A DNA stretch of 64,000 nt, from assembly GCA_013399305.1 (NCBI GenBank), contig VXAI01000199.1, forward strand, positions 102,830 to 166,829. Reading direction: 5' to 3'. The stretch is from Rostratula benghalensis (Eukaryota > Chordata > Aves > Charadriiformes > Rostratulidae). Below are positions 24,678 to 64,000 of this stretch, one piece after another. Both the position numbers and the translations under genes were made by a program. The notes beneath the pieces are model-generated. The model did no database searches. It saw only the letters and a program-made list of their open reading frames with translations, and was not told the DNA's origin. Numbering within the stretch: position 1 is the first letter of the stretch; each line of letters starts with the position of its first letter.

Positions 24678-25200
24678 AAATCATAGAATGGTTAGAGTTG
24701 GAAGGGACCTTAAAGATCATCAAGTTCCAACCCCTCTTGACACCTCCCAATAGACCAGGTTGCTCAAAGCCCCATCCAGCCTGGCCTTAAACACTGACAG
24801 GGATGGGGAATCCACAACTTCCCTGGGCAACCTGTTCCAGTGCTACTCCAGCCTCACAGTAAAGGATTTCTTTCTGGTATCTAATCTAAACCTAACCTTC
24901 TTTCATTTTAAAGCTATTGCTTCTTGTCCTGTCACTACACTGCCTGACAAAAAGTCCCTCTCCAGCTCTCCCTTCAGATACTGGAAGGCTGCTATAAGGT
25001 CCCCCCAGAGCCTTCTATTCTCCAGGCTGAACAAGCCCAGCTCCCTCAGCCGGTCTTCAAAGGAGAGGTGCTCCATTCTTCTGATCATCTTTGTGGCCCT
25101 TTACTGGACCTGTTCCAACACTTCCATGTCCTTTCTATGTTGAGGACTCCAGAGCTGGACACAGTACTCCAGGTGGAGCACTCCAGGTGTTGTCCTGGAC
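24678..25200 (-). repeat. CR1 LINE 3' fragment, about 520 bp
   Basis: This is a well preserved CR1 copy on the minus strand. It begins with the AATCATAGAATGGTTAGAG tail and the GGAAGGGACCTTAAAGATCAT motif. It runs through CCAGGTTGCTCAAAGCCCC, CTTCTTGTCCTGTCACTAC and CAGCTCCCTCAGCCGGTCTTC to the 'ACAGTACTCCAGGTGGAGC' region. The element is 5' truncated. It is useful as an internal reference: aligned to the corrupted CR1 copy at 45524-46090, it shows that the A8 blocks there replace bases and do not add them. The 127-codon plus-strand frame here is an antisense reading of the repeat. Confidence 0.95.
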
Positions 25201-32610: not shown

Positions 32611-32694
32611 AAAATATCTAAAAGAGACAGAAAGACCTAATTTAAAAGAAATAAAATATCTAAAAGAGACAGAAAGACCTAATTTAAAAGAAAT
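32611..32694. repeat. Perfect tandem duplication, 42-bp unit, 2 copies
   Basis: The 42 bp at 32611-32652 are repeated without mismatch at 32653-32694 (the unit begins AAAATATCTAAAAGAGACAG). A possible third copy fails after three bases. Perfect identity suggests a recent slippage duplication or an assembly duplication. Confidence 0.95.
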
Positions 32695-34160
32695 AAATGA
32701 GTTTTTCCCTTGCTAAGGTTTCTAACTTTGATCTATTTATATACTCTATGCAAATCTAGAAAGCCAAAATTCTCTTTGAAAGAAGGTGGCCAAAGCTAAA
32801 GTGAGTATTGGTGCATATACCTCTGGCTGAAGCAAAGACTTTGCACTGGTTTTAGACTTTCTAGAAGTTCGAACTATTCCACCGTAACACTCCAGCCGTT
32901 CCACAGTGAAGTTAAACTTTGATTGTATTTCCAACAAGTCTACACCATTTTATTTTCATACCTCTTTGACCACATGTTATTATGATGACTGTTACCGTAT
33001 GTCTAGGGCAGCTGAAGACCCCACAGCCATATGCCTCTTTCCTCGGCTAGATTCTGTGTAAAACATACCCTAAAAGCACCAGCATTGTCCTCAAAAGTTT
33101 GACCTTATGGATGAAAATACTCTGTGGAAATAGAGAGTAACATGAATTTTGTACAATATTTATGAGCTTAAGTCACAACTTAAATTAGGTAAAATAAACA
33201 TAGGCCAAAACTAGCCACTGAGAACGTTGATACTTGAGAATCTTATTTCATTTGGGTTGAAAAAAAAAAATAACAAGCATAGTAATTATGATATGTAAAT
33301 GCTACTCCTACACATATTCTGCTTTGCAGTATATCAAAGTCTTTCCTATAAAGTTTCCGATGAGGAGATGTTCTCTACGTTCATCAGGGACAGGAATGCA
33401 CACAACTGTGGATTGCAGACTACTTGGTTCACACAAAGCCACTTTCCAAGGCGAAGCATGTTTAAGGTATCGCATTTCCCACCCTTTTGAGTTGGGCATA
33501 AGCTCAGCCCCAGGATGCCATAAAAATAACACACTATAATCATCAGCTGTGCTTTGAGGGTACTAAAGAGAAGAGGTCATAGGTTCAGTTAGAGTAGAAG
33601 GTGTCGTAGATAAGCAAAAGTTCTTTTTAGCCTTTAATGATTGCTATCACACAGAAAACCTAGCATATGAGGCATCAAACTTCTAATATGCTTTCTCTAG
33701 CTGAGGCAGCATTCCTTCATACCATCAGTGCCAAACCCCTTCTCATGGAAAAGCATATTATGCTAAAGAGTTTGCACTTAATTTCTACTGTGCACATTTT
33801 CTATTGTTATCAGAACCAGACTGAAGAATGGGTTATTTTACATGTCTGAGCTGAAAGCAGACTTGAATGTTCCTCAGCACATGGCACATCTAGCATCACA
33901 TCAGGAGGGTACACTGGAGACAAGAGCTGGAGAGTATAGCTTTGGAAGCAGCCACCTGTCAGACAACAATGCCTGGGCTTGAGGATTGTCTAGACTTCCA
34001 TTATGCTTGAGTCCCTGTTCTTGTGTAAGCAGAATGCCTAGACGAATCAAGCCCCTCTAGACACGAGAAAAAAAAAGGGAATCAAATTGCTCCAAAGTAT
34101 AATCATTCAGTAAAAAAGTAATGCAATGCTAGGAAGGCCAGATAGATAGCTATATAGTTA

Positions 34161-40632: not shown

Positions 40633-41137
40633 TAGTAATTTAGAGAATAATTCATTTCCCTGTTTGTCAGTTTTGGATGGGAAGTCAGAGAGTGGGAGGG
40701 CAGTGTTCACTGCATTCCTATTTCTCCACTGCCTGTACACATTTTGAAGGGAGGATACTACTCTAATTAGGTGTTGCTGTCCATCCACTCTGTATCTGCC
40801 TAAGTAGCCAGGCAAAGTGCAATGCAATACCAACTCGATTAGCTTTCAACAAACTAATCGTGTAATACTGGCCATCTCCCATAATAAACTTGAGAGCCTT
40901 ACCAGGGAAAAATTGCTAGAATGATTACATTTTAGGCTAACAAAGCCCACCATATCCAGTAGCCACAATTAACATCTCATACACTTCACAGTGTTCCTGT
41001 GAGGCATCTACCTCCTCCCTGTTTACTGTTTAAAGTCTTGAATTTCACAATCTCCAAAAATGAGGGTGGGAGGAGAACATGCTTAGTACACAGAATAACA
41101 GGGAGTTTATGCTTTAGTACTTCTTCCTTGCACTTAC

Positions 41138-41555
41138 CTACACTTGTAGGAAATATATTCTCATTGTTGATTTGCACCTCAATCCAGTCCATGAGAAGAT
41201 TCATATATTGGGGTGCTGGCAATGCTGTGGGCTTCTTGTACTTCATGTCGTCCTGCCACCGGTACTCATACTTAGGGCCTCCAGACATCACTGGGCAGGT
41301 CCTCTCTGTGCAGAACTCACAGATAGTTCCATAAATGAGGTTGATCCTATTGAAGAAGTCAACAACATGGACAGCCACCCAGTCATTTTGGTCTTCTCCA
41401 GTGGGCAGCTGCACAGCTGCTTTCAAGTCCACGCCTGAGTTGAGGGAGGCCTGTGCTCGTTTGTGAAGTTCAAACCTCTGGGTTCCAGGTTCAAACTTAC
41501 GTTTTGGGCGGAAAGTCTTATCTTTATTAAAGACTTGCTTGAGTGCTATGGACAT
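41138..41555 (-). CDS. MOB3B: MOB3B first coding exon (codons 1-139 plus one base)
   Basis: The exon encodes the N-terminal two thirds of MOB kinase activator 3B, starting at the ATG complementary to 41553-41555 ([20 protein letters not shown]). An upstream in-frame ATG is not used, because it lies beyond the likely splice acceptor. The protein shows the basic KTFRPKRK segment, the [20 protein letters not shown] helix and [10 protein letters not shown]. Cys82 and Cys87 in that segment match the zinc-binding cysteines of the MOB1 fold and pair with His164 and His169 in the next exon. [14 protein letters not shown] and the [11 protein letters not shown] helix follow. The exon ends at TAG|GTAAGT after the first base of codon 140, in phase with 12452-12654. 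The start residues SIALK and the CEFCTER segment identify MOB3B rather than MOB3A. The product is a small intracellular adaptor linked to MST-family kinases. No frame breaks are seen. Confidence 0.96.
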
Positions 41556-41573
41556 GTCTGCTAATCTTCTGTT
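41556..41573 (-). other. MOB3B: MOB3B 5' UTR part of the first coding exon
   Basis: Eighteen bases lie between a likely acceptor (TTGCTGCAG|AACAG) and the start codon. The upstream sequence is only moderately pyrimidine-rich, so the acceptor is a reasoned choice. The remaining 5' UTR and the promoter must lie upstream, in or beyond the corrupted region. Confidence 0.65.
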
Positions 41574-44500
41574 CTGCAGCAATTTGCAGAAAAGCACACC
41601 TGCGATTTAATGCAGGTATGTGAGAACAGTTGCTCCCTATCACAGGTCCTCCAGGCCCTTTTTTTTTCCTCAGAGAAGCACGTATCAGCTTCAGAGCAGT
41701 TTAACAGTTCTTCCTCTTGAAAGCCTCCTGGAAAGCCTTCATGTGCCTAAGGATATAGAAATAATACACATTAGTGGTAAGCTAAGTATGGCCCTATCAG
41801 TTTGTTACTGTTTTACCATCATTTTCTAGTAATTATGAGCTGAAAAGCAAATATATAACAACCTAGACTTAAAAACTGGAAAACCCCTAACCTTTTGAAC
41901 ATTTAAAGCAAAACAAAAAAAAAAAAAAGTCTACTTTCTTAAAGTATTAAGGAATTAACTTTTGTTCTCTTTCAATATTTACCCAGAGAGAGCTTCTTAA
42001 ATTATCATAAAGATGGGAATTCAATAAATCTTGTCTAATCTTCACATCTTTAGATAATTTTTAAACCAAACTTTTAATTTTGTTGCATTTTTACTGTGAC
42101 TGCATACCATACATAATGCATGTATAAATTTAATAAACAAATGTAGTATAGTATATGACAATGTAGAAGTCTTATGTATCTGCTCCTAAAGGGACTGATG
42201 GTGCCTCTAAGCATTCACCACAGGTTCCGTGCTCTTCTCTGTAGGAAAGAAATCTCCAAACAAGATTTTTCCATATTTGTTCTCTATTTTTAATTAATGA
42301 GGTATTTATTTTTACAAACCTTATAGAACCTAGATTAGAGTGAAACCTACAGTATTGCATAGCACTAATCCATGTTTCCCACAGAAATTCATGGAGATTG
42401 TTATTTTTCTTGATTCACCTTCAGGAATTCAGTAGTGGTCTTAATTATATATTGGACTGTGCAGGGTAAATAGAAAGCAACAGTGAAGCTGCCACTTTAT
42501 AGCTCCATTCATCTTCTCTACAAGGGGACACTTGGCTTTGTCATTTTTACAAAAGGAAAAGCATTGACTTTGTGTTGTTCCATCTAACTTACTCTGGCAA
42601 CAAAGAATGGCTTTGACAGCCCATCTGACAGAAAAAAATTAAGTACTGCATTAGAACTTTGTTCTTTTACATGCAAAAGAGTATTATCATCAGGAAAGGC
42701 AGGCAACTAGTAGGTGATAAGAGTAGCTGGGAGCAACCTCAATTACACATTTGGTTTAGTACTAAAGGTTTTAGGAGCAAAGACAGAAAGTAAACATTTC
42801 ATGCTGTGCATTATTTAAACAAATTAATGAAGTATATTTAAAATTTGCACAGCACTACAAAAAACATTCCCTATCTGTGGTGGATGAATTCTCATCATGA
42901 GATTACATATGATCCACTGTTTCCCTTAACAGAAATCATGTCCAAGAAAATTTTACTAGGTTGTGTGCAGAAAGTGCTACGTTCTTCTAAAGACAATTGC
43001 CCAAAACTTTGCTGAGGGCCAGAAATGAAGAGAAAAAAAGCTTGTTTTTACTTAAGCACCACAAGAAAGCAATATGTATCAAAGCAAAGAAAAATCTGGT
43101 GTACTAGATCTCATCTCCATGCAACAGAATTTAAGTGCTATAGAAAAGTCCTCTCCCAAATAGCTGAAAGATCAGCATCCAGCTAAGTTGCCAGCAACCA
43201 GCAGCTAAACTAAAGCAGCAGAGAAATGCCTGTTTTTCCTTTTGCTGATGGCAAAATGGAGAGATACTCCAGTCATGAGCTTATAAACAGTTATTCTTTC
43301 TGTGCCAGCAAAATACAAAGAGTTCAGTACATGAACTCCAAGGACTCTATTGTCATATCTGACGTGCCCCTTGGAGGGGGGCATGTTCAAAAACAGAGAT
43401 CTTGAATGTTCAAATCCCAAGATCCTTAAACCTGACAAAGGTCAGGGAAAGAAGACTTTAAACAAAACTAGACTGGGAACAATTTAGTTAAGTGTTCTTG
43501 GCAGGAAATGAAGGCACTTTAAAGAAACAACTTTTCCCAACAGTCTGTTGTTTGTTACTAAGACCCATAACCTGCAGCTCTCAAAGGCTCTCTGGCAGTC
43601 AGCTGTTTATGTAAAAGCCTTTCAAAGAATAGGTGAGTAGTAACTGCACAGACCGAGCTTGTGACTGACACACTTTAAGGTGGCACGGAGCCAACGTCCC
43701 AGTTTGCAATAATAAGGATGTTAGCTCCAGAGTTCTACAGCTCAAGTAACTCATTTTTTCTCACTTTAATATACCTGGCACTCTTATGTGGCTACTTTGA
43801 CTCTCTTTCTCCCCTGTAAATATTGTCTAGAACACTGAAGGAGTTTTTATTTAAAACAACAAGCTGAGCACCAAATAAAAAACATCTTCAAAAGTCACAT
43901 TTTGAAGCACAATACTCACAGCTGTTAAACCTTTTCCAAGAAAAATAGAAGACACTGTATTTTATAAGCTATTTTCTACTGAATGGGCAAATATAATTAA
44001 TCACATTAAATACGTAATCTGCCCACTCCTCTCCATACATTCAGTAAGTGTGTATAAAACCAAGTAATGCAGACAAAAAGCAAACAAAACACTCAGCAAA
44101 CAACTCCGTATCTCAAGTCTGTGTACCAGGAGTCACATGTCAAAATGGTCTGTGGAATTACACCTATACCATGGTCAAATACAACTGAAAGACTAATCCA
44201 AAAGAGTATTCTACTATGAAGCCATATGAAACTGTTCTTTAACATACCAAGGCAGAATCAGAACAAACAAGAATTTCCTAGACATTTTGTGTCCGGAGAG
44301 CCTGCTGTTCAGCATCTTGCAATGAAGGGTAAGGCTCTTCCTCTTTCATCTTTCCATCACTTTCCACAATACAAAACTACATGCTATCTTTGCAAAGCTG
44401 GACTGTAGAACCTCACTTAGAGACTAAGCTCTACTAAGAGCTGATTTTTTTCCTTTCTCTTAAAATGTTAGTGAAGGCTGTGTAAAGCGAGGGGATGGAT

Positions 44501-44814: not shown

Positions 44815-44988
44815 NNNNNNNNNNNNNNNNNNNNNNNNNNNNNNNNNNNNNNNNNNNNNNNNNNNNNNNNNNNNNNNNNNNNNNNNNNNNNNNNNNNNNN
44901 NNNNNNNNNNNNNNNNNNNNNNNNNNNNNNNNNNNNNNNNNNNNNNNNNNNNNNNNNNNNNNNNNNNNNNNNNNNNNNNNNNNNNNNN
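44815..44988. other. Assembly gap, 174 N
   Basis: A run of undetermined bases joining two contigs. Its length is probably an estimate. Sequence to the left is normal; sequence to the right carries the A8 comb from its first row. Confidence 1.
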
Positions 44989-45523
44989 GGAGATTAAACA
45001 CAGACAAAAAAAATTTGGATCCTTCAAAAAAAAAAGCTAATGGGAAAGCTCTAGAAAAAAAATTTGGGCTTTTAAAAAAAAATTACTGCTTAGGCAATAA
45101 AGTAAAAAAAATTAATGGTGAGAAAAAAAAACCTCTGCTTTGGACTGAATCACTAAGCCAGTGCAGGAACTCATTCATCATTAGACTTCCAACATGCTGC
45201 TAAAAAAAATTTGAATCAACAAAAAAAAATGAAAGGTTTGCCATTCCATCAAAAAAAACGTACTGTCAATAAAAAAAACATAGTGTTGTACTTACAAAAA
45301 AAAAAAACTGCTTCAAAATAAAAAAAAATTAGCAAAAAAAAAACCTTAAAAAAAAACCTTAACAATAAAAAAAAAACAAAACCTCTTGATTAGATAGAAA
45401 AAAAATGCCGGATGGCAAAAAAAAAGGGGTTTTGGTTGACAAGTTCAAAAAAAACCATTGACACGTAAAAAAAACTCATAAAGTCAGCTGTATCGAAAAA
45501 AAAATCAAAAGAAACAAAAAAAA

Positions 45524-46090
45524 CAAGTCAAGGGAGGTGATTCTACCACACTCTGGTGAGACACCACCTAGAGTGGAGTCCAACTCCAGGGTCAAAAAAA
45601 AAATAAGGACATGAAAAAAAAGGAGCAGGTCCAGTGGAGGGCAAAAAAAATGATCAGAGGGCAAAAAAAACTCTCCTATGAGGACAGGCTGAAAAAAAAG
45701 AGCTTATTCAGAAAAAAAAAGAGAAGGCTCCACAGAGACCAAAAAAAAGCCTTCCAGTGCAAAAAAAATCCCACAGCAGATGGGGAAGGAAAAAAAAGAT
45801 CAGTGAGTAAAAAAAAACTTCCTGTGATCAATGTATCAAAAAAAAAGGTTTTAGACTGAAAAAAAAGAGATTTAGACTAGATATAGGAAAAAAAACTTCA
45901 CTGTGAGAAAAAAAAGACACTGGAACAGGTTGTCCAAAAAAAAAGTGGCTGCCCTGAAAAAAAAGGTGTTCAAGGCCAGGTTGGAAAAAAAAATGAGCAA
46001 CCTGGAAAAAAAAGAGGTGCTCCTGCCCAGGGCAAAAAAAAAGGAACTACATGAAAAAAAAATCCCTTCCAATCCAAACCATTAAAAAAA
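45524..46090 (+). repeat. CR1 LINE 3' fragment, overwritten by the A8 comb
   Basis: Between A8 blocks the text reads as CR1 on the plus strand: GGAGGTGATTCTACCACA, CTCTGGTGAGACACCACCTA, GGAGCAGGTCCAGTGGAGGGC, CTCTCCTATGAGGACAGGCTG, GAGAAGGCTCCACAGAGACC, GACACTGGAACAGGTTGTCC, GGTGTTCAAGGCCAGGTTGG and TCCCTTCCAATCCAAACCATT. The intact pieces are spaced exactly as in unbroken CR1 copies. The 82-codon open frame here arises from the A blocks. Confidence 0.93.
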
Positions 46091-48075
46091 ATTTAAATCA
46101 TTGAAAAAAAAACTTGGCTTCCTGGCCACCACAAAAAAAACCATGACTATTTAAAAAAAACAAGAATGAGAAACACTCTCAAAAAAAAAGTCCCAGTTGG
46201 TAAAAAAAAAGTTACTTCAGATATGAAACAAAAAAAAAAATGCTGTGGTAAAAAAAAAATTGGATGACAACTCTCATATAAAAAAAATGGTACAGTAGCA
46301 AAAAAAACCTTCCATGTAAAATTGACTAAAAAAAAAAGATATTTTGCAAAAAAAAATTATATCAGTAATGCTAGCCAAACTCCTCTTGACTTAAACCTGT
46401 GTCAAAGGCAAGAGAAATTGGCTTCTAAAAAAAAATGACAGATACCAAAAAAAAAATGGTGTGTAAAGAATGGTGAAAAAAAACCAGGTGTTTTGAAAAA
46501 AAACATACAAAGCAAGTGTTCTGGAAAAAAAACTGTACTAGGTTAAAAAAAAATGTCTTTCTTGGTGTGGGAAAAAAAAAAACTCCTCCCAACAAAAAAA
46601 ATTCTAATCTTTCTTTTCAGAGAAAAAAAATTCTGAAGATGAAAAAAAAATACCAACGGCTTTTCCTGAATAACTATTCCATAGTGTGAGCAATGCAGTT
46701 TGGTGAATTCCCTTGCAGGCAAAAAAAAGCGTAAGGATGGAAAAAAAAGACTCAGAGATGATCTCAAACAAAAAAAACACAAGCTTCATAAAAAAAATCA
46801 GCACCACAGAAATCAATGAAAAAAAAAATCTTATGCAGAAAAAAAAACATATTGAGACAGTAAATCAAAAAAAAATCAGGTACACCAAAAAAAAAGGTTT
46901 GAGGTAAAACAGAAGAAAAAAAAAGTTCAGTAATTTAAAAAAAAATCTGGGCATCTTCTAACTAAAAAAAAAATGAAATTAACAGAAAAAAAAGCAGAAA
47001 CTGCTCACTCTCAGAAAAAAAAAATCAGATTATGAAAAAAAATGGTATGCAGGGAGGCTTTTGCTTATGCTGATTGCTATAACAACTAAGGTCAGGCAAT
47101 CTAGTTATTTGCAAAAAAAAAAGGCTGGAAGAAAAAAAAAGTACAGAGGTCACACCTGTGGAAAAAAAAGGACAGGACAGGAAAAAAAAGCATGACCAAT
47201 GGGGTATTCCAAAAAAAATGTCCCAAGGTCAAAAAAAAAGCTGAGGGATCAAAGGGACAAAAAAAAATCTTCATTGGCCAAAAAAAAAGGAGGATCCTGT
47301 CTGTTCATAAAAAAAAGATCCCGATCTGAAAAAAAACGACTCCAGATCTGGAATTCAAAAAAAAACTGTCACCGCATAAAAAAAAGGACTTTTACCTGTG
47401 CCTGCTAAAAAAAAGACCATCATCCTAAAAAAAAGATATGGTTTTGTATATACTGAAAAAAAAAAAAAAAATATTAAAAAAAAATTTATCAATATTTTCA
47501 ATAAAAAAAAAAAGTTTTTTTCTAAAAAAAAAAATCTCTTTATCTCTTCCTCTAAAAAAAAGGAGAAGGGCAGAAAAAAAAGGGGAAAGCATCTGTCATT
47601 CCAAAAAAAAAACTTGACCAAAAAAAAAAAACCAAGTCAACATATGTAAATAAAAAAAAAGTCTTACCCATAAAAAAAATACTGAAAAAACCACCCACAA
47701 AAAAAAAAACACTATAATCAAAAAAAAATCTGAGTCACTGCTGAGTTAAAAAAAAAATTTATCATTTCAAAAAAAAATTTCTATTAAAATCACAGGTAAA
47801 AAAAAAGTTAAATGACACAAAAAAAATAAACACAGACCTTTCATCAAAAAAAAAAACTAAGCATTATAAAAAAAATAGAGGGTTGCTGAGAAGCTAAAAA
47901 AAAAAATTGCAATTTTAAAAAAAAAGGCACTGAGGATATATGACTAAAAAAAAACCAAACACATAAAAAAAAACTGAAATCCAAGCCTGCATCAAAAAAA
48001 AATTACATTCTTTAAAAAAAAAGTCTCTGTTTTGAGCACCAGCAAAAAAAAATCCAAAGCCAGAAAAAAAATGTA

Positions 48076-48614
48076 GGAAAGCACATTTTTGATCCAATTC
48101 TCATTGAGGTCCAACACTTTGTAGGCTTCTCATGTTTGGCTTCATGCAAGCCAAATTTGTATCAAGTTTGTCCATACAAGGGCCATTTCACTACAGATAC
48201 TACAGCAAATACATTATGTGGAGGCACATACACATACTATGCTCCATTCTGATTGAGCAAATGTACACTTTCTACTTCCAGGCTCAGGACTGAGAGCTAG
48301 TATTATACTATACAATGAACAGGTTCTCTTTTTAACACACTGAAGTATGAAGAATGAGTCAGCATGGAAATGCCTGTCCTGTAATCTGAAAACGCTTTCC
48401 TATTTACAAAGCAAAAATCAGCCAAGTAGGAACGATAACATTTCTTGTATCTATTTACATACTTAAATTTATGCACTTTGGCTAAGTTTTACCTGAAATC
48501 ACAAGGAAAAAAAATATGCAATTATCTGTATTTATAGTGAAAACTTCATGATGCAAGAAGACATTCTTCATGGGGAAAAAAACCTCCCCTTACTTGTACA
48601 CAGAAAGATTAAGA
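48076..48614. other. Eleven consecutive uncorrupted 49-bp rows
   Basis: This 539-bp island inside the corrupted contig has no A8 blocks at the predicted positions. It reads as normal AT-rich intronic DNA with no gene or repeat that I recognise. The natural A-run at 48577-48583 is off the grid. The comb resumes at 48632 in the original phase. Confidence 0.9.
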
Positions 48615-51600
48615 TTTGCCAAAGTTGAAAGAAAAAAAAAAAATGACAAAAAAAAAAAATATGTTTCTTAGAAAATGTCTAAAAAAAACAACATACATGA
48701 AAAAAAAAATCAGGTTCTAAGGGTGACTGAAAAAAAATTCTACATTCCAAAAAAAAATCAGCAATCCTGCAAATTCCAAAAAAAAAAACCTCCCAGAAAA
48801 AAAAAAGTCTGATTATTATTGTTAGACAAAAAAAATAAATATACACAAAAAAAAATCAACAATGTCTCAGGTTCTCAAAAAAAAGCTTGGATAACTAAAA
48901 AAAAGCTTCTACAGTGACAGTTTTCAAAAAAAAATACCACTATTAAAAAAAAAAATATCCTGCCGCAGCATTTGAAAAAAAATTCTGTGTTGCCAAAAAA
49001 AAACCTAGAGTATCTCAATTAATAAAAAAAATAACAACAGTAAAAAAAAAAATCCAGTGAAAGGAGGCTTACAAAAAAAACAGGACAAGAATAAAAAAAA
49101 GTTTATGGTGGTAGAAGTCCTAAAAAAAATAGGAAAAAACAAAAAAAAATATGTCTCAAAGTCCTCCTCAAAAAAAAATTCCTGGGGCTTAAAAAAAATC
49201 TTCCCTTTTCTCTAATGCTAAAAAAAATGCCTTACACTTAAAAAAAAGTGACAACCACAACAACAAACAAAAAAAACAGGGTATTCAGAAAAAAAACACC
49301 GACTGGAAATAAACCTTAAAAAAAACAGAAACATTTTAAAAAAAAAGCAACATCCATTCATTGGACAAAAAAAACCTAGCCTTTGTAAAAAAAATGCAAA
49401 GGGAAAAAAAAAAAGAAAAAAAAGATTCCAACAGAAAAAAAAAACCCACAATTGTAAAAGATATAAAAAAAATCATAAATGGTAAAAAAAAAACCAAAGT
49501 GTCAAGGCTTAACAAAAAAAATATAAATGACCGAAAAAAAATTTCTTATCTTGACTAGTAACAAAAAAAACCCTTTTCTAAGAAAAAAAATAAGGAAAGC
49601 AAAATACGATGAAAAAAAATCTATAAAACTGAAAAAAAAAAAAAAGAACATAGTTATATAAAAAAAAACAAACAATAACTAAAAAAAATCAGCTTCTGCT
49701 ATGCTAATAAAAAAAAAACATTTGACAAAAAAAAAAATATGAAGTTATATGACTTTGCAAAAAAAAAGAGATTTTCACAAAAAAAAAATTGAAAAAATAA
49801 TAAACGGAAAAAAAATAGGGTCAGTCCAAAAAAAATGAAAAAGTAGCAATGGCTCAAAAAAAAATCAGGGAATAAAAAAAAAAATTTGTGGGCCTTTTTA
49901 GACAAAAAAAAAAAATGATATGATCAAAAAAAACATGAGCATATGTCAGAGGTTAAAAAAAATGGAACATTTTAAAAAAAAAATGCTTTACTTACAACTA
50001 CTTAAAAAAAATTTCAACAAATTAAAAAAAAATACAGACTACAAAAAGGAGAAAAAAAAATTTCCCTAGGAAAAAAAAAACAAAACCAATTAGACATTGA
50101 CAAAAAAAACAGTCATTTCTTAAAAAAAAATTAGTTGTTTGACAGCAGCAAAAAAAAATATAACTGCGCAAAAAAAAAGTGTTAAGTGCTGTTTAGTAAA
50201 AAAAAAAAAGCATGTTTTTAAAAAAAAAAACATTTGTGTTTTAACAGAAAAAAAAATTCTCAACTAGTAAAAAAAAAGTGCCTTTTACAAGTGTTAAAAA
50301 AAAAAACACCTCATCAAAAAAAAAAGAAATGTATGGTAATGTCTATAAAAAAAAGAATGTACTGGCAAAAAAAACTTCACTGCAAGTTTATATTGAAAAA
50401 AAATCCATGGCAATCAAAAAAAAAACACAGCCTGTAGCATACAGAAAAAAAAACTGAAATAAGTAAAAAAAAGAACTACAGTAAAGAAACTGCAAAAAAA
50501 ACATAATTTAGATAAAAAAAAAGTTCAACCTCTATTTCTCTCAAAAAAAAGAATTTAAGGTCAAAAAAAACTACAGACTGATAGTCATGCAGACATATGT
50601 ATGGCTACAATATTTTTCTGAAGTCAGTTCTGCCTCACCTAAAAAAAATTCGTGTTCCTGAAAAAAAACCATCTCCCCTATGATACTTGAAAAAAAAGTT
50701 TATACATCCAAAAAAAAGGAGCTGTATGAGACTAAGACAAAAAAAACAATAATTAAACAAAAAAAATTTTTCATCCTAATCAATTTCAAAAAAAACCTGA
50801 TGGGCCGAAAAAAAAAGGGAAGAGGACAGCACAAGGAAAAAAAAGTGTTGAAGGCAAAAAAAAAGACAGATGGAACAGGAAACAGCAGGAGTGCTTTTTC
50901 ACCCACGGCCACTTTAGTGAATCACAGTGTTTGCAAAAAAAAACGATCATTTCGAAAAAAAAAAACCTTTAAAGCACTCCCTTAAAAAAAAGCAACTGCC
51001 AAGAAAAAAAATTGACAGGATCACAATGAAGCAAAAAAAACTGACAGTCTCTAAAAAAAATGTTTTTGTTACACACCCCTGAAAAAAAAGTTCTTTTCCT
51101 GAAAAAAAAGTTTTTACTGGTCTGAGCTGTAAAAAAAACGTGTGCAAGCAAAAAAAAATAACCACATTCTCTGTAAGTAAAAAAAAAGCCACTGCCTTCA
51201 AAAAAAACCCTTGTGACCTGTTACATCCAAAAAAAACTAATAAAACAAAAAAAAAATGAATGCATGTGCCTTGTTTGAAAAAAAATTGTTATAACCAAAA
51301 AAAAAGTAAACAGTTACCGTATTGGTAAAAAAAATGGTTCAGCTTGAAAAAAAAGTAGCAATAAAACCAGCTCACAAAAAAAACTTCTGCCAAAAAAAAA
51401 AAATCTCTGTGGAGTATTCTCAATAAAAAAAAGCTGTTTAACTTAAAAAAAAGCTTATTGCAGCACTTTGCTTAAAAAAAATACCTTAATTAAAAAAAAA
51501 AACAGAGGACAGGTAAAAGGAGAAAAAAAATTGTAATGGCCTAAAAAAAAAGGAGGAAATACAAACTAAATAAAAAAAACATTCTCTCTGAAAAAAAAAA

Positions 51601-52059
51601 TTTGTCTGCTCCAGGGTGTTAAAAAAAAGACTCCCAAATTAAAAAAAAGCTGAGGCCAATGGGATCTCTAAAAAAAACAAAAGACATAAAAAAAAAATTT
51701 TACACTTTGAATACTCCCAAAAAAAAAGAGAGTAAGAGAAAAAAAATGAACTATGGTTCAACTTCACAAAAAAAATTGTTCTGTTCAAAAAAAAACACTC
51801 CTAAATCTACATTCTGAAAAAAAAAAACACTGACACAAAAAAAAAGACAGTAAGAGAGCTAAAGTAAAAAAAATTGCTCTTGCTAAAAAAAAAGAATATC
51901 CACGATTCCCATACAAAAAAAAAAAACTAAGTCCAAAAAAAATTGTTGAAAAAAAGGAGTCAGAAAAAAAAAGTGATAGAGAAAAAAAAAATACACACAC
52001 ACAAAAACATGGAAAAAAAACTCATGTCAGGGAAAAAAAATTCTCATTTGTGTAAAGAT

Positions 52060-52152
52060 CTAAAAAAAAAGGTGGCGTCCCAAAAAAAAGCAGGGGGGCT
52101 GGAACAAGTTAAAAAAAAAGGTCCCTTCCAAAAAAAAACATTCTGTGATCAA
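52060..52152 (+). repeat. CR1 LINE tail, overwritten by the A8 comb
   Basis: GCAGGGGGGCTGGAAC, GGTCCCTTCC and CATTCTGTGATC are visible between A blocks with the spacing of a normal CR1 3' end. Eight bases are replaced between GTCCC and GCAGGGGGG. Confidence 0.85.
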
Positions 52153-55100
52153 ACAGAAGAAAAAAAAAACAAGGCAATAAAAAAAAATATCTGCTCAAAG
52201 GCAACAGTAAAAAAAATATAAGTTCGGGAAAAAAAATTGAAGTGGCCAAACTGAGTTAAAAAAAATGTCTAAATCTTAAAAAAAAAAAACCATGTACGTG
52301 TTCTGCAAAAAAAAAAACAAAAATTCAAAAAAAAACATTCCATCTCAGTGACATTAAAAAAAAAACCACTCAGATAAAAAAAAAAAGCCATGCTGTGCTT
52401 TAATAAAAAAAAGCAGACAGCAAGAAAAAAAAACCATACTGACTGGCTAGCCCAAAAAAAACCATAACACACCAAAAAAAAAGGAGCAATGCACTAGCAA
52501 TAAAAAAAAAAGAACAAAAGGCAAAAAAAACAGCAAAGAAAACTTTTACTTAAAAAAAAATCTGGAAAGTGAAAAAAAATAGTTTTTCAATTAGTCCCTG
52601 AAAAAAAAACTTTATAGGCAAAAAAAAAGTATTTGTTAACTTTTTTGCAGTTTGTGGCAACTCTCATCCACCACTAGCTCCAAGATCAAGTTTTTGTGAA
52701 AAAAAAAACCATTCTGCAAAAAAAAATACTCTGCTTCTAAACATATCAAAAAAAATTACTGTAACAGAAAAAAAAGACCAAGCTCTTAACAGGTATAAAA
52801 AAAAGAAAACTTCCTTAAAAAAAAGCAAAGGAACTGGCTTTTCAAAAAAAAAAGCCCACAGCTGTAAAAAAAAACCCAATACTACAGAAAGAACAAAAAA
52901 AAATTACTTATACAAAAAAAAAAAATGATCATCAGGGAGGGTTAAAAAAAATTGTCTCCTGACAAAAAAAACAAGCAGTTCACTCCGAAGCAAAATAATA
53001 TAGTACATCTTGTGGTCTGTGCAGCCATAGCTGTCAGCAAAAAAAAAAAGCACAGCTGACAAAAAAAAAAAAGTGCCATCCCTGCTTTGAAAAAAAAAGG
53101 TTCCCCCACAAAAAAAAACTGCTCAGTTTAGCCTTAACTAAAAAAAATGTTGCTGATTTAAAAAAAAAATTGACTGTGAAGCCGGCACAAAAAAAAGCAG
53201 GGAATTGTAAAAAAAACTAAGATTCCGCCTACAAAACAAAAAAAAAGAGCATGTTTCAAAAAAAATAATTTCAGTAATTCCCAACCAAAAAAAAACCAAG
53301 AAAAAGAAAAAAAATAGTTTGCTGTTCCTACTTGTAAAAAAAAGTGTAATGCATGAAAAAAAACAAACGGAAGGGCCCTGTCTTAAAAAAAAAACAGAGC
53401 AACAAAAAAAAAAGCTTTTATTTGCTAGTGTAACTCATAAAAGGCAGCTAAGTCCTGTCACTTTTTACTGAGAGACTGTAGAAAAAAAAAAATATTTGTT
53501 GCAAAAAAAACTGCCTTATCAAAGATACATCAAAAAAAACAGGTGGTTACAAAAAAAAAAGCAGCAGAGTATTATCACTTAAAAAAAACATAACCCATAG
53601 AAAAAAAAGATACTTATTCCCTCAAAATAAAAAAAAATAAGACGTCAGAAAAAAAAATTGATTCAGAGTTAATTATAAAAAAAAAAAGGGGGGGAAAAAA
53701 AAAAAAAAAAAAAAAAAAGGCCCACCAAAAAAAAACAATCCAGATCAAAAAAAAAAATAAAAAGCAGCAGGAGGAAAAAAAAAAGAGACAAACAGTAAAA
53801 AAAATGTCTTTTGGGACAAACAGCGAAAAAAAAGTCTTACTCTTTAAAAAAAACACTCCCAGTCCGAGAATCTAAATATAAGGCACTTCATTATCCAATC
53901 ATATTGTGCTGCTGGAAACCTAAAAAAAAAATATTCTCAAGAGAAAAAAAATGCAAGATACAATTTTTGCACAAAAAAAAAGAACGTAACATAAAAAAAA
54001 ATTTGTATATTCATGTTAATTAAAAAAAACTGAATAGAAGCAAAAAAAAAGAATAGCCTCTCAAAACATTAAAAAAAACTTGGTCTTAGAAAAAAAAAAG
54101 CACCTGAAGTTTCTATCCTAAAAAAAATCTCCTCTCCCTAAAAAAAAGTCTTTCAAATGGAAGACATAAAAAAAAACCATTTATATGGAAAAAAAACTAC
54201 ATACCATACCCTCGCTCAAAAAAAAATAGAATCAAGAAAAAAAAATATATTGTTGAATGTCTCCATAAAAAAAATCTGTATCTCTTAAAAAAAACCACTT
54301 CCTACCAGAAGCACAAAAAAAAAGACACCCATACAAAAAAAAAGTTGAGATTTTTTTTCACCATAAAAAAAACACTTCTACTACAAAAAAAACTTATGTT
54401 TATTTTAACATTTAAAAAAAACCACTGGTATTTAAAAAAAACTTTAACAAGACTGAGAATGCAAAAAAAATTCACACAAATTAAAAAAAATGTAACTTAG
54501 TCCTAAATGGGAAAAAAAACACAACAGCCCTAAAAAAAATCTCCTTTAGGATGCTTTCATAAAAAAAATTGCTACATAAAAAAAAAAATAGGAAATTGCA
54601 TTGCTACCTAAAAAAAATTTATCCCATTTAAAAAAAATCTTTTGCCACCTGTGCATTCAAAAAAAAATGGTTTTGATCAAAAAAAAAATTATTTGAGTAA
54701 GCCCAGCAAAAAAAAACACAATATCTGAAAAAAAAGAGGCAGATGCCATCATAACTAAAAAAAAAGCGATTACCACAAAAAAAAAGAGTACTCCCAAATA
54801 CATACAAAAAAAATGTGAAAAGCCTAAAAAAAAGGTGATTAACTGAGAAGACTGAAAAAAAATACTAACACAGCAAAAAAAAAAGACCAAGTTTTCATTA
54901 GAAAAAAAAAACAGGACCCAGGAAAAAAAAAACACGATGAAGTTTCTATGCAAGCAGTTTTTTGAGGGAGTTACTGTCTTGCAGACCACTACTCTGCCTC
55001 CAGCAAGACTTGAAACTTGCACTATAGGTATTTCTTTAGGAACCACCAATAAAAAAAACAGAATACCAAGAAAAAAAACACTGGATATGTATCTGCAGAA

Positions 55101-57154
55101 AAAAAAATTACAACAAATTAAAAAAAAGTTAATAGGCAGCTTCTCCCAAAAAAAAATACATGCTGAAAAAAAAAAACTCAGCAATGCTATAAGAGAAAAA
55201 AAAAATCTGGAAATACTAAAAAAAATTGGTTTTTTCTCTGTAAGGAAAAAAAAATTTTATTCCTCTAAAAAAAAAAATATCCTCTTAATTTTCCTAAAAA
55301 AAATCCTTCTTCCGTAAAAAAAATTGGTGCCTCTCACAGTCACAAAAAAAAATTGCAACAGGCTAAAAAAAAAGTGCCAACTAAACAGCAATTAAAAAAA
55401 ATGACACCACACAAAAAAAAAAAGGCTTCTGGATACATTCCGAAAAAAAACTATTGAGCTTCAAAAAAAACGATCAACTATGGAAAACAATAAAAAAAAT
55501 ATACAAAAATAAAAAAAAACACCTACATTTGCTGCTGCTTAAAAAAAAATGTGCAGACAGAAAAAAAAATTAAATTATTGCATGTGTGTAAAAAAAAATG
55601 CAATTATAGAAAAAAAATTCTTGAGCACTTCCTGTTTTAAAAAAAAGACAATATGCTGAAAAAAAAATAAAATAAAACAATGCAACAAAAAAAAATGCAT
55701 TTAAGTCAAAAAAAAACTGGGAGTTCAAGAGAAATTAAAAAAAACTTCGATTCATTAAAAAAAAGACCTGCTTAAATTGGCATGAAAAAAAAAGTATAAG
55801 TAATAAAAAAAAATAGAGAATCTGATCCATATGCAAAAAAAAGACAAATATAGGAAAAAAAATCAAATACTGAGTACACCAGTAAAAAAAAAAATGGAAT
55901 AATAAAAAAAAGCCAGGACATCAGGATTTTCCAAAAAAAAATAAGCATCATTAAAAAAAAGTCTCTGTCAGCTCCAATTGCAAAAAAAAAAAATAAATAT
56001 GAAAAAAAATACTACATTTTCCACGACGTAAAAAAAAAGAAAAAAAAAAGAAAAAAAAACAAACTCAGGGAAAAAACATAAAAAAAAACTGAAATGTTCA
56101 AAAAAAAGAAAAATAAACAGTTAGTTTGAAAAAAAAGCATACATTTGGAAAAAAAAACATTTTGACCATTTTTGGCCAAAAAAAAGAACAGCCAAATAAA
56201 AAAAAAAATTGTCATGCTGATATATTAAAAAAAAAAATAACAGATAAAAAAAAAAAGTCTATCCAGATATCTCGAAAAAAAAAAGATTTCCTTTAAAAAA
56301 AAAATAATGATAAGACTTGAGAATAAAAAAAAATTCTAAGGGTGAAAAAAAAATTGTATAGGCCCCATGCAAGAAAAAAAAGTCAAAGTCCAAAAAAAAA
56401 AATACACCCATTACATAGATGTAAAAAAAAGCTGTTCTGAACAAAAAAAATACATTTCCTCCAAAGCTTGTAAAAAAAATGTTACCTTCAGAAAAAAAAT
56501 AGACACACCAGTAGAGGCAGAAAAAAAATTCTAATACAAAAAAAAAAATCCAACACCCCTTAAGCCAAAAAAAAAAATACCCTCCAAAAAAAAAAAAAAC
56601 AGTCATCTGTGGTAGGCTAAAAAAAAAAAACTTTTGCTAAAAAAAAGAGGTCTTTGGATATACTGACTCATATTTCACCTGTGTGGCAGAGATACTGTAT
56701 CCAGACTGTGAAACTCAAAAAAAAATACCTGAACTGAAAAAAAAACAAAGAGATTTCAGCATATGAAAAAAAAAGGGTAAGGAGTAAAAAAAAATGCTCG
56801 CTTCTGATCTGTCAAAAAAAAATTTCATCAGGACAAAAAAAATAATTGAATGGTTTATTCCAGAAAAAAAAAGATGTTACAGAAAAAAAAAACTGAAAAA
56901 ACCACAGGAAACAAAAAAAAAAGCATTATGCTAAAAAAAAGCTTCAAACTTCATAATGTTTAAAAAAAAAAGACATTATCAAAAAAAAACAATTAGTCTA
57001 GGTTACAGATAAAAAAAAGCTGTACTACTTAAAAAAAATGCATTCAAAGATGAGGCCAGAAAAAAAATGCTAATTTTGTAAAAAAAATACCTATCATAAG
57101 TGGTAAAAAAAAAAAATGGAGGGCCAACAAAAAAAAGGCTTTTCAACATGAAAA

Positions 57155-57830
57155 ATCAAAAAAAAAATATAGAATCAAAAAAAAACCTAGGTTGGTAGGA
57201 AGATCAAAAAAAAAAACCATCAACCTAAAAAAAAAAAAGCCATCACTAAACCACAAAAAAAAACACTATGTGAACAAAAAAAACAAATACCTCCAGGGAT
57301 GGTGAAAAAAAAACTTCCCTGGGAAAAAAAAACCAATGCTTAATGAACCTTTCAAAAAAAAAAATTTCTTCATAAAAAAAATGAACCTCCCCTGGAGCAA
57401 CTAAAAAAAATTTCCTCTTGTCAAAAAAAACATGACTTGGGAGAAGAGACGAAAAAAAACTCCCTACAACCAAAAAAAAAGAGATGAGGTCTCTCCTCAG
57501 AAAAAAAATCTTTAGGCTGAAAAAAAAATTCTTCCTCAGCCTCTCCTCATAAGACTTGCTCTTCAGACCCCTCACCAGCTTCATTGCCCTTCTCTGCAAA
57601 AAAAAAAGCATCTCAATGAAAAAAAAGTGGTAAGGGGCCCAAAACTGAAAAAAAAACTCAAGGCCTCAAAAAAAACAAGTACAGGGGGACGATCACAAAA
57701 AAAATCCTACTCACTCAAAAAAAACTGATACAGGCCAGGATGCTGAAAAAAAACTTGGCCACCTGAAAAAAAAGCTGGCTCATGTTCGGCTCAGAAAAAA
57801 AACTGCCAGGCAGCAAAAAAAAGCTTTTAG
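57155..57830 (-). repeat. CR1 LINE fragment, about 675 bp, overwritten by the A8 comb
   Basis: This is a minus-strand CR1 copy of a different subfamily from the one at 45.5 kb. Readable pieces are ATAGAATC, CCTAGGTTGG, AATACCTCCAGGGATGGTGA, TTTCCTCTTGTC, ACTTGGGAGAAGAGACG, GATGAGGTCTCTCCTCAG, CCTCACCAGCTTCATTGCCC, GGGGCCCAAAACTGA, GTACAGGGGGACGATCAC and CTGGCTCATGTTCGGCTCAG. One untouched row near 57.53-57.58 kb leaves a longer continuous match. The 121-codon reverse frame is an artefact of the blocks. Confidence 0.92.
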
Positions 57831-60800
57831 TGCATCTGATTTGAAAAAAAATGTGATTGCTATAAAAAAAATTTGAAAATAAATCTTGGCATAAAAAAAA
57901 CCTAAATTAGTTAAAAAAAAGGCTTTCACATAAGATGAAATAAAAAAAACCACTGTACGTTAAAAAAAAAGCTTAGTTTTGATCATTAAAAAAAAAAAGG
58001 ATTGTGCTGAAAAAAAAACCAATGCCTGATAATGTTACTAAAAAAAAATAAAGACATTGAAAAAAAAAAAATTAAACCCCACAATTTAAAAAAAAAAGGG
58101 CAATATGAAAAAAAAAATAATGTAATATCTACCATCTAAAAAAAATGCATAGCTGAGAAAAAAAACACAGCACCTAATGGCCCTGCAAAAAAAATCTAAT
58201 AATTACAAAAAAAAACTTAGCAACTCCACCTTTCTAAAAAAAATGTCAGATTATGAAAAAAAATAAACAATCATACATATGTCGAAAAAAAAGCTGCATT
58301 GGCCAAAAAAAAGGCAACAGATGCTCTCCCCCAAAAAAAAATGCAAGGAGAAAAAAAAAAAAGATAAAGAGAAATATGAGTAAAAAAAAAACTAAATCAC
58401 TTAAAAAAAATAAAAAGGAATTAATGAAACAAAAAAAAAAATATATACAAAAAAAAAAACAAAATCATATCAAGCTCCCAAAAAAAAATCACTGGCAGGC
58501 AAAAAAAAGTCCTAGACTGGACTCAGTGAAAAAAAAAAAGTGGATTCTGAAAAAAAAACACACATATTGGGATTAGAGAAAAAAAAAACAGACAGGGTAA
58601 AAAAAAGATGCCAGCCACCGAAGAAAGAGGCTGACTACTTTGACCTCTCAGCTTTTGTACTGAGCATAGGGCAGATAAAAAAAAATACCACTGCTGAAAA
58701 AAAATGGGTCACCTGTCCTGTCTACAAAAAAAAGCAAGTGGGACCAAAAAAAACTTTTCCACTTCCGACTCTGCAAAAAAAAAAATAATGAAGTAAAAAA
58801 AACTTGTTTGTTATAGCAATAAGAAAAAAAAAAAAAACTCTCTAAAAAAAATTCCTTGGCATCAAGCGGAAAAAAAAAAATTAGCAGTCTGAAAAAAAAA
58901 AGTTTTCTGCATAATACGGTGAAAAAAAAAGAGAGTTCAAAAAAAAAAAGCTACAAAATAAAATTACTGAAAAAAAAATTGGTTCTGTTCAAAAAAAAGC
59001 CAGGACAACATATTGAATCAAAAAAAAGCATGAACAATGAAAAAAAAAAGCAACTCCAGCAACCTTCAAAAAAAAATCAGCAGCTTACAAAAAAAAAAAA
59101 CTAGAGAAGGGGGAATAAAAAAAAAATGCCTCTGGACAAAAAAAATTTAAAATGGACTAAAGTCCAAAAAAAAACAGGGCTGAACAAAAAAAAACTGTAT
59201 GATTTACAGGGACAAAAAAAAAACAGCCAGGGACAAAAAAAAATACTGACCTAGCCTGATCACCAAAAAAAACCAGCACTGATGAAAAAAAATACCCAGG
59301 ACACAGAAACATGAAAAAAAAGTAGTTACGAGTAAAAAAAAGTCCTCATAGAGTTGCTATGTAAAAAAAATCAGAGCACAGAAAAAAAAAAGACCTTCCG
59401 GTCCTTAGGAGAAAAAAAATCCAGCAGCATGAAAAAAAAAATCAACACTCCTCTAATGCAGTACGCCAGTGGCTCTGGCACAGATAAATGCAGAAATCCA
59501 GCAGGAGCAAAAAAAAATGCAACTGCCATAAAAAAAAACATGGCAAAAGTTAAACCTTAAAAAAAAGCAGTATGGGTTAAAAAAAAAGCAAAATACATTA
59601 ACCCAAGAAAAAAAATGCGTCTGGGTAAAAAAAAAGGGTAGTGGTAAGATACAGAGAAAAAAAAGTTAGAACCTTTAAAAAAAAAATCATCTATTCAAAT
59701 GAAGGAAAAAAAATTGTAGATTCTTAAAAAAAAGGTTCTAGTCTGGAGTCCCATAAAAAAAAATGAAGAGAAAGAAAAAAAAACAACACATTTAATCTCA
59801 TCCAAAAAAAATGAAGTACATTCAAAAAAAACAAACTTAAAAATGCTCATCTAAAAAAAATAATAATAAAAGAAAAAAAAGGTAACGAGCCCAGACATGC
59901 AAAAAAAAAAGTGTAAACAGGAAAAAAAAGTTTCCTTCCCTAACATCCCTAAAAAAAATCATCACTAGCAAAAAAAAAGATTATGGGCATGCTCCTTTGA
60001 AAAAAAATCTTCTACTTCTAAAAAAAAGCACAGTAATTGTTATAAGTAAAAAAAAAAATTAATTAATGAAAAAAAAGAAAACACTGTGTGATTCTCTAAA
60101 AAAAAATACTTTTAGAAAAAAAAAATTAGTATGAAAATATTGTATGAAAAAAAAATGACAAACAGTAAAAAAAATCTACTGGATTTTAATACAGCAAAAA
60201 AAAAGTACCTTTAAAAAAAAAAAATATAACTGATTATGAGACCTAAAAAAAATATACACACAACAAAAAAAATATGGGACAATTAAAAAAAAAAAAAAAA
60301 AAAAAAAAAGGGGAAAAAAAAGCCCAAACCAAACCAATAACCAAAAAAAATGACACCTTCTGAAAAAAAACATTGGAGGCCTTATGGTTTTAAAAAAAAT
60401 GCTGGTGTCCTAAAAAAAACCCCACTGAAATGTCAGTTATAAAAAAAAGATTTATTCCTCAAAAAAAAATAGCAATTCCATGGATTCAGAAAAAAAAGAT
60501 ATAAAAATGAAAAAAAACAGAAATGTAAACAAATTAGCAAAAAAAACGACAGAGAGAAAAAAAAAATAGTCTTCATTAACATAACTTAAAAAAAAAAGGT
60601 GTGTAACAAAAAAAACACAATTAAGTGTAAATATGCAAAAAAAAACTTGGTAACAAAAAAAAAAGAACACGGGTAGAAATCTATAAAAAAAAATGGTCCT
60701 GCTGAAAAAAAAAAGATACTAACGTATTTTTCTTAAAAAAAATTGAAAGCTACTAAAAAAAATACCTATCCAAGGCAAATGACAAAAAAAATCAAATTTA

Positions 60801-63800
60801 CCTAAAAAAAATGCATGCCCTCACAAATACAAAAAAAAAACTATCACCTCATAAAAAAAACATTGTATTGAATATGTTGTCAAAAAAAACTAGGCATTAC
60901 AAAAAAAAACTGCAAGCAGTTGAATTCAGAAAAAAAAAACTAAATCCTTTAAAAAAAAAATCACACGCACTCTCCATTAAAAAAAAATGCCTTCTACTAA
61001 AAAAAAAATTAACCCCTTATACCTAACCAAAAAAAATCTTAGAAGACCAAAAAAAATGACCATCTTTTAATCCTAACAAAAAAAAATGTGACAATAGAAA
61101 AAAAACAGACTTTGGAAAATAGAAGCAAAAAAAATCTCTTGGTGATAAAAAAAACAGCTGTGTTTCCAGGCCTTTATTTATATGATAAGTTCTGTTTTGT
61201 TACCATGTTAATTTAAGGTATGATAAAAAAAAAAGTACCTGAGAAAAAAAAAATCAGCTGTTATCCCGAGATCAAAAAAAAAGACTCATCCATAAAAAAA
61301 AGTGGATTCCGCAGCCCATCTTAAAAAAAAGCAGTCAGCTTTAAAAAAAAGAAGATTGGCTCAACAGCAAAAAAAAAAATTTGAGTGGGAGAAAAAAAAT
61401 ACATGGGCTTCTCCAAGTTCAAAAAAAATCCAGTATTACTAAAAAAAAATCATTACTAACACTATAGGCAAAAAAAACTAAAAAAAGGGAAAAAAAACTT
61501 GCATTTGGGTCATTGTATAAAAAAAAGCAGCGCATAGAAAAAAAAAAGATTTTCTAAAGCAAAAAGCAAAAAAAACGTTCTGCTTCCAAAAAAAATATCA
61601 TAAAAGAGAGAAAACTAAAAAAAATATGCAGCCAGGAAAAAAAACAAAATTCCCAAGAATTTTGCAAAAAAAAATTTATTTTTGCAAAAAAAACTGCTCT
61701 CAGGATACTAAAGGAAAAAAAACATGCATCCCCTAAAAAAAATACTACACAAATTAGCGATATTTTTAGCAGCTCATTCTATATTTCTTCTGTCACCAGG
61801 GACAGAAGTTGCAAAAAAAAGAAGTTTTTCAAAAAAAAAATTTTTGTTGCAAGTCAAGGTCTCTCAAGATAGCGTCAAACCAAGATTTTGCTCCAGGATT
61901 ACAGTACAATAAAAAAAATGTTTTACATGCAAAAAAAAACATTTTTGGACTCTTTTGTCAAAAAAAAACTTAATGGAAGAAAAAAAACAGCCACATTTGG
62001 TGACATTAAAAAAAAAAGTAAATTGCTAAAAAAAAACACTAGAAAAAGGTAGGAGGTAAAAAAAATACACCTGCAACAAAAAAAAGCTGTACAATCCAAA
62101 AGGAATAAAAAAAAATTATAATTCTAAAAAAAAAATTAATGCAATCAAGTTGTGTAAAAAAAACATATCAGTACAAAAAAAAAAAAAAGAAATTTATTAT
62201 AAAAAAAAAAAAATCATAATGGTGAAAAAAAAGGTTTTCAAATGGCCTCTCTCAAAAAAAAAAGATACAACACAAAAAAAATACCAAAACCAATCCCACT
62301 GTAAAAAAAATAAAATATCCATAAAAAAAAGTGCTTTGAGAACAGCATACAAAAAAAAAAAACATGACAGCAAAAAAAATTTCCAAGGTCACACATCAGG
62401 AAAAAAAAAAACCAAGGAATAAAAAAAAAGTTGCCTCATTTGGAGTTACAAAAAAAACATTAAGCTGAAAAAAAAAAATATTCTTGAAGCAGATTTTGAA
62501 AAAAAACAAACTCAGCTTAAAAAAAATCAATGAAAAAACATGTCCCAAAAAAAAATGGAAAATGCAGAAAAAAAAATCTAATAGTCACACTGGAAAAAAA
62601 AAAACCCTGGACTTTAAAAAAAAAGAAAAATGAGTAGCACAAACCAAAAAAAATCTTCTCCCTCAAAAAAAAATTTCTCTAACCTGCCGTTAAAAAAAAA
62701 AAGTCATCAAATTAAAAAAAAAATGGTCATAATTATTAAACTAAAAAAAAAAACCTGCAAAGCAAAAAAAAAAATAACAGAAGGAAGGCACCAAAAAAAA
62801 TTACTGGAAAAAAAAAAAAAATGACTCATTATATTTTATGGAAAAAAAAGAAGGGCAGAGAAAAAAAAAGATTTATTTTCCAACTTCATCTCCTGCATGT
62901 ACTCTAGTCCTTCATCTAACTGCTCGATAGTCAAGTTTTAAAAAAAATCTTGCTTCTTAAAAAAAAAAACTGTACCACTTTCCAAAGGAAAAAAAATATT
63001 TTAGACTGAAAAAAAATATAAGGGGTTGCTTAAGGTTAAAAAAAAAAAACTGTAAGTAAAAAAAAAGAAAAATGGTAGCAAGAGGCAAAAAAAATTGATG
63101 AAAGAAAAAAAAAAAGCTCTCGAGCTTCCAAGGCCCAGCATCTTCTCTAACATTCCTGTGCCTCTTTCCAACACAGCACACCTGAAAAAAAATCTGCGAG
63201 TAACAAAAAAAAGTTGCTCATTCACCTTCAGGCAAAAAAAATAAAGGCATTTGAAAAAAAACCCTAGAGTAAAGGTATATGTAAAAAAAAATTCAAGTGA
63301 CTAAAAAAAAGCTCCAATTTATGCATAGTTTAAAAAAAAACCACAGTGAATAAAAAAAAAGCACCAAGTTCTTTGGATTGAAAAAAAAAAAAAAAATGCA
63401 AAAAAAAAAAGCTGTATTTTCACTGTCCCAAAAAAAAAAGATATTTGGCAAAAAAAAGCTAATAACATTTCTGGTGGTAAAAAAAACAACACAATTAAAA
63501 AAAAAATGTTTTAATTCAGGAAATAACAAAAAAAAAGACCCCATTAAAAAAAAAATGCATGCTATACTATAAAGAAAAAAAAAATAAGAACATACAAAAA
63601 AAAAAAGGACATTCCTTATAAGAAAAAAAAAAATCAGAATCAGCTAAAAAAAAGACTTCCTCGGATCAAGATCCAAAAAAAAATGTGAGTATCCAAAAAA
63701 AACTCTCTTTACAGAGATGCAAAGACTTAATCCTTCAGCCCAAATCTGTCCATAAAAGAAGGTCAGTGCTAAAAAAAAAATATTGGGAGTTCAAAAAAAA

Positions 63801-63916
63801 TCTTGCCCCATTGCTGGAAGAAAAAAAAAGCACCATATAATAAAAAAAATCTGGGTAGGCAACAGCTGTTAAAAAAAACCTTCCTGTGGAAAAAAAAAAA
63901 ATTAAGCTGCTGCATA

Positions 63917-63919
<3 letters not shown>

Positions 63920-63947
<28 letters not shown>

Positions 63948-63976
63948 GAAAAGAAGAGAAAAGAAAAGAAAAAAAA
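63920..63976 (+). repeat. poly(A) followed by GAAAA-type simple repeat
   Basis: A 28-bp A-run is followed by A/G-rich GAAAA units. Part of the A-run coincides with two comb blocks, so its natural length is unknown. The last row (63952-64000) appears untouched, because its second block position (63989-63996) holds mixed bases. Confidence 0.7.
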
Positions 63977-64000
63977 GGGGAAAAAAGCCCAAACAAGACA

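Follow-up and report, generated by a model that had tools for sequence, protein, structure and literature searches.

Among described features, those closest to the pattern analysed here are the assembly and file artefacts of draft genomes, the tandem arrays and satellites, and the poly(A) tails that retroposons leave behind. Like a draft-genome artefact, the pattern is confined between runs of N and has ordinary sequence between its elements; however, whereas the familiar artefacts are misjoins, collapsed repeats or errors in homopolymer length, the damage here takes the form of an exact coordinate comb. With tandem arrays and satellites the comb shares a fixed period, but its rows are dissimilar outside the periodic blocks, and while the period of a tandem array drifts through insertions and deletions, the phase of the comb is the same in 10 of 10 successive stretches. 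Tandem Repeats Finder reported only short local arrays in the affected contig (the longest about 106 bases, periods 48 or 51) and no array of period 49. As with retroposon poly(A) tails, the A-runs lie on one strand; in contrast to such tails, the blocks of the grid are exactly 8 long, the neighbouring columns have no excess of A, and the blocks sit inside repeats at fixed coordinates. Among the literature matches listed for artefacts of this kind, no account of a comparable comb was found, and we know of no biological process that yields one.

The window, by which we mean the whole analysed stretch of 64,000 nucleotides from Rostratula benghalensis (assembly GCA_013399305.1, contig VXAI01000199.1), contains this comb in its right-hand 19 kb. 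We conclude that the comb is very probably a data-handling artefact that has overwritten real sequence, with zeroed bytes in 2-bit-packed records of 49 bases as its likely source, and that it is almost certainly not a biological feature. Contig coordinates, not the content of the sequence, fix the pattern, save for a weak influence of row content described below. The type of failure that we propose, a silent loss of byte lanes in sequence software, may quite possibly be one that has so far gone undescribed.

Geometry and extent of the comb

When the 19-kb piece is cut into rows of 49 bases counted from 44989, the first base past a run of N, 353 of its 388 consecutive rows carry AAAAAAAA at the same two positions. 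The letters inside blocks amount to 5,648 of the 19,012 letters of the comb contig (29.7 percent). The features that define the comb are as follows.

44815-44988, no strand: run of 174 N, the left border of the affected contig
44989-64000, plus strand: affected contig of 19012 bases = 388 x 49 (G000:C409:147818-166829), with A8 in columns 18-25 and 38-45
45006-45013, plus strand: first block 1 (row 0, columns 18-25), recurring at +49k
45026-45033, plus strand: first block 2 (row 0, columns 38-45), recurring at +49k
48076-48614, no strand: 11 consecutive block-free rows (63-73), matching only themselves in the assembly
63952-64000, plus strand: last row, in which the columns of block 1 are all A (an A-rich stretch) and those of block 2 are not

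The original prediction had placed the blocks at 45006+49k and 45026+49k and expected two peaks in the start positions of A-runs modulo 49, at 24 and 44; both peaks are present in the comb contig, with 259 starts at phase 24 and 239 at phase 44. From 44989 on, 704 of the 710 runs of at least eight A start at phases 20-24 or 40-44, and the starts at the lower phases fit blocks that were extended leftward by a chance A. Before 44989 there are 19 runs of this length, scattered over 17 phases. An even spread of phases modulo 49, which would have counted against a grid, was looked for and not found. The assertion that the grid never slips also holds, since the best phase is identical in all ten successive stretches of at most 40 rows, and the stretch of 539 bp that had been described as free of blocks proves to span exactly 11 rows.

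The comb ends exactly where the window does, at 64000, and a run of 7304 N starts directly beyond. The 19012 bases between the two N runs make up a whole number of 49-base rows, an outcome with a chance of 1 in 49; should the right-hand run of 7304 N be a withheld stretch instead of an assembly gap, this whole-row length would describe the visible piece alone. No comb was seen in the 44.8 kb of the window to the left of the comb contig, and no row with both blocks was found in 10 kb further left, in the scaffold's initial 10 kb or in 72.7 kb to the right; single-block rows outside the comb contig numbered four, at scattered places in the sequence fetched from beyond the 7304 N. Because a stretch of 1,200 letters fetched separately from the assembly (26 flank bases, the 174 N and 1000 bases of the comb contig) is identical to the window at 1200 of 1200 letters, the comb is present in the assembly itself.

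The row as a unit, and rows that escape the comb

Blocks are kept or lost by pairs: of the 388 rows, 353 have both blocks, 34 have neither, and one, the last, has only the first. When each second block is instead paired with the block that opens the following row, 23 + 23 mixed cases appear among 387 pairings. Given this loss by pairs inside rows, the row border must fall at some point after a second block and before the first block that follows; the row presumably starts at the first base of the contig.

The 35 rows without a full pair comprise the 11 consecutive rows and 24 scattered ones; beyond the 11-row stretch, 23 more rows lack both blocks. Examples of the 24 scattered rows are the following.

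Start 45136: scattered non-combed row
Start 45528: scattered non-combed row
Start 46361: scattered non-combed row
Start 50575: scattered non-combed row

Outside the block columns, the scattered rows are somewhat richer in GC than the combed rows (0.44 vs 0.39; permutation p 0.006, n=24) and poorer in A, and their column composition differs from that of combed rows beyond what shuffles give (p 0.015 by the largest column and 0.013 by the sum). Row content thus weakly influences which rows are combed. Such content dependence is not predicted by a blind loss of bytes, and a rewriting of rows from another source might produce it. As a separate observation, columns 14-17 read TGCA in 4 of the 24 scattered rows.

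Sequence between and beneath the blocks

Between the blocks, the contig resembles its surroundings. Combed rows outside the blocks have the composition A 0.324, C 0.209, G 0.184 and T 0.283, for comparison with A 0.311, C 0.205, G 0.199 and T 0.285 in the flank; the ratio of CpG to expectation is 0.15 outside the blocks and 0.16 in the clean flank; and the column composition of combed rows contains no excess of A in the columns that adjoin the blocks. Adjacent rows agree at 0.262 of positions outside the blocks, and composition alone predicts 0.263. Since the similarity between rows does not exceed what their composition would give, the comb is not a repeat array, as had been proposed from the unrelated appearance of the sequence from row to row.

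Interspersed repeats serve as rulers for the sequence beneath the blocks. For these alignments the blocks were set to N and the comb contig was aligned to repeat copies in clean nearby sequence. The repeat in the comb contig that gives the first two rulers, like its copy in the window, is one which we take to be CR1-like. BLAST of the contig against the window copy at 24755-25193 returned two alignments, the first (E 7.9e-5) with four gap letters near its start and gap-free from contig position 588, the second (E 0.002) gap-free over its whole length. The rulers are listed here.

45576-45758, plus strand: ruler 1, repeat copy aligned to window 24980-25162 (minus strand); 7 of 7 blocks face 8 ordinary bases, gap-free
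45918-46005, plus strand: ruler 2, aligned to window 24755-24842 (minus strand); 3 of 3 blocks face 8 ordinary bases, gap-free
57238-57787, no strand: ruler 3, a repeat with copies on the contig's right-hand side; 18 of 20 blocks face 8 real bases, gapped

In the two gap-free stretches, all ten blocks face eight ordinary bases, A8 in none of them, and agreement outside the blocks is 103 of 127 and 56 of 64 bases. A search of the larger neighbourhood listed seven matches at E <=1e-3; the analysis went on with the four at E <=1e-7, three of which span blocks. In these three gapped alignments, the first two of which set the same stretch of the comb against two repeat copies, 18 of 20, 20 of 21 and 5 of 6 blocks face eight real bases, none of them A8, with agreement outside the blocks at 330 of 388, 335 of 396 and 132 of 165 bases. 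The two long gapped alignments run across twelve row borders apiece.

Because the rulers stay in register, the sequence must continue across rows with only the block letters replaced. Insertion of A8 is ruled out, as the repeat rulers hold register through the blocks, and the same alignments rule out a loss of bases at the row borders. Wherever ruler copies exist, real sequence of equal length lies beneath the blocks and has been locally replaced; we infer that the blocks without a ruler are replacements as well. The earlier view of the comb as a fixed coordinate grid and not a drifting error is borne out by this result, in which blocks replace bases without shifting the register, together with the constancy of the phase.

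Searches for other combs and for a clean copy

The assembly, searched over 1,086,608,298 bases in 1298 contigs, contains 147 pairs of A8 blocks of exact length at the within-row spacing on the forward strand and 61 on the reverse. The comb contig itself supplies 94 of the 147 forward pairs; the remaining 53 and the 61 reverse pairs are as expected of a balanced background, and we therefore exclude a second comb of the same spacing and similar size, combs of few rows or of other spacing lying outside this exclusion. Among the first 100 of the 208 exact-length places, 60 are in the comb contig and 40 are scattered in earlier scaffolds. The plain pattern A8N12A8 is swamped by poly-A genome-wide (22766 forward, 22347 reverse), and A8 pairs at spacing 11 number 26088 forward and 25844 reverse.

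A comb on the reverse strand was considered and rejected: the left flank has no T8 pair at spacing 20 (A8 pairs occur there at two poly-A places), and the 25 T-runs of at least five in the comb contig spread over 18 phases. A clean second copy was sought with the intact 539 bases at 48076-48614, which match only themselves in the assembly. A comb of three rows had 0 matches in viral_contigs; in genome_contigs (prokaryote contigs) it matched 41 stretches, all poly-A or very A-rich, with an A fraction between blocks of at least 0.82 in 39 of the 41 and an A fraction over the whole match of 0.87 and 0.97 in the two that hold N. Rfam at gathering scores gave 0 matches.

Origin of the comb

A data-handling origin could have unfolded as follows. 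The contig would have passed through a program or file that stores consecutive units of 49 bases, and part of each unit would have been lost. If a 49-mer is packed at two bits per base with A = 00, it would form a right-justified number of 98 bits in two 64-bit words, the high word holding 17 bases and the low word 32. For rows counted from the contig start, block 1 would then occupy bits 63-48 of the low word and block 2 bits 23-8, so that the retained bases would correspond to a low-word mask of 0x0000FFFFFF0000FF. Two pairs of whole bytes, once zeroed, would be read back as AAAAAAAA, and the block-free rows would be units that escaped the loss or that were rewritten from another source. With right-justified packing and rows from the contig start, both blocks are whole bytes and block 1 begins at the 64-bit border. 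We favour zeroed packed bytes because, with A coded 00, the missing columns correspond to complete bytes under this packing. That byte lanes of such records were zeroed across one contig and passed as valid bases is a step to which we nevertheless give slightly less than an even chance, because the byte alignment was recognised only in retrospect and several row starts align: over nine row starts tried, alignment occurred in 3 of 9 with right-justified and 2 of 9 with left-justified packing, and byte borders agree with one frame in four. No program was identified whose output would be a contig made of 49-mers set end to end, the papers listed for SOAPdenovo and 49-mers naming none. Two simpler forms of file damage were rejected. 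In a contiguous 2-bit file, 49 bases fill 12.25 bytes, and the blocks would shift against the byte borders; in FASTA text of usual wrap width, newlines would put a grid of bytes out of step with the bases.

The main rival of packed bytes is a textual mask over 49 columns, in which text rows of 49 letters, or a mask that keeps 33 letters and drops 16, had their masked columns output as A, or as N that was later converted to A, without any packing of bits. Such character-level corruption accounts equally well for the fixed columns, the register across row borders and the whole-row length; it does not explain why the columns should coincide with the byte and 64-bit borders of a 49-mer, or why the full pair of blocks is missing from 35 of 388 rows, and we judge it unlikely while still a serious contender. 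A step further removed is editing after assembly, whether deliberate or accidental, for instance a watermark or a test planted in the analysed copy. Restriction to a single contig and the perfect regularity would suit such an intervention, yet the separately fetched stretch equals the window in full, though both may share one source, and 24 scattered non-combed rows with a weak dependence on content would be an odd design; we consider it improbable.

Failure during sequencing is harder still to sustain. Reads of 49 bases, in which two stretches of eight cycles failed and were called as or converted to A, would have to be joined end to end. Reads of about this length did serve a bird genome, in that the goose genome paper describes large-insert libraries with an average read length of 49 bp (PMC4419397). 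Against this, shotgun reads start at random, so that 388 abutting reads in the same phase would not be expected, overlapping reads would presumably fill the failed cycles, and no second contig shows a comb of comparable size with this spacing; the explanation is very improbable. Least credible of all, with a likelihood that we regard as negligible, is real biology in the form of a tandem array or phased A-tracts. A-tracts do occur in genomes and may be phased, but the rows here are unrelated, the blocks replace letters of interspersed repeats while keeping to a fixed register, and the comb ends at N runs on both sides with no drift of phase over 19 kb.

Consequences and neighbouring features

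About 30 percent of the letters of the comb contig are unreliable even as they resemble valid bases, and annotation, studies of homopolymers or A-tracts, the dating of repeats and variant calls would all err within it. The value of the comb lies in the warning that it gives about the affected contig and in the simple check that it exemplifies: scanning the start positions of homopolymers modulo small periods is a cheap way to detect such contigs in any assembly. Between 44989 and 64000 the blocks also create false reading frames, KKK-rich on the plus strand and FFF-rich on the minus strand, which may enter gene predictions.

Away from the comb, the window has two minus-strand frames that match the Pfam family Mob1_phocein, one at 40986-41606 (E 4.1e-44, profile 1-106) and one at 12395-12784 (E 2e-27, profile 101-170). 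These are thus likely two exons of one minus-strand gene for a kinase activator of the MOB family, presumably MOB3-like, and the comb contig lies on the likely upstream side of this gene. The clean part further contains a perfect 42-base tandem duplication at 32611-32697 (2.1 copies, 100 percent).
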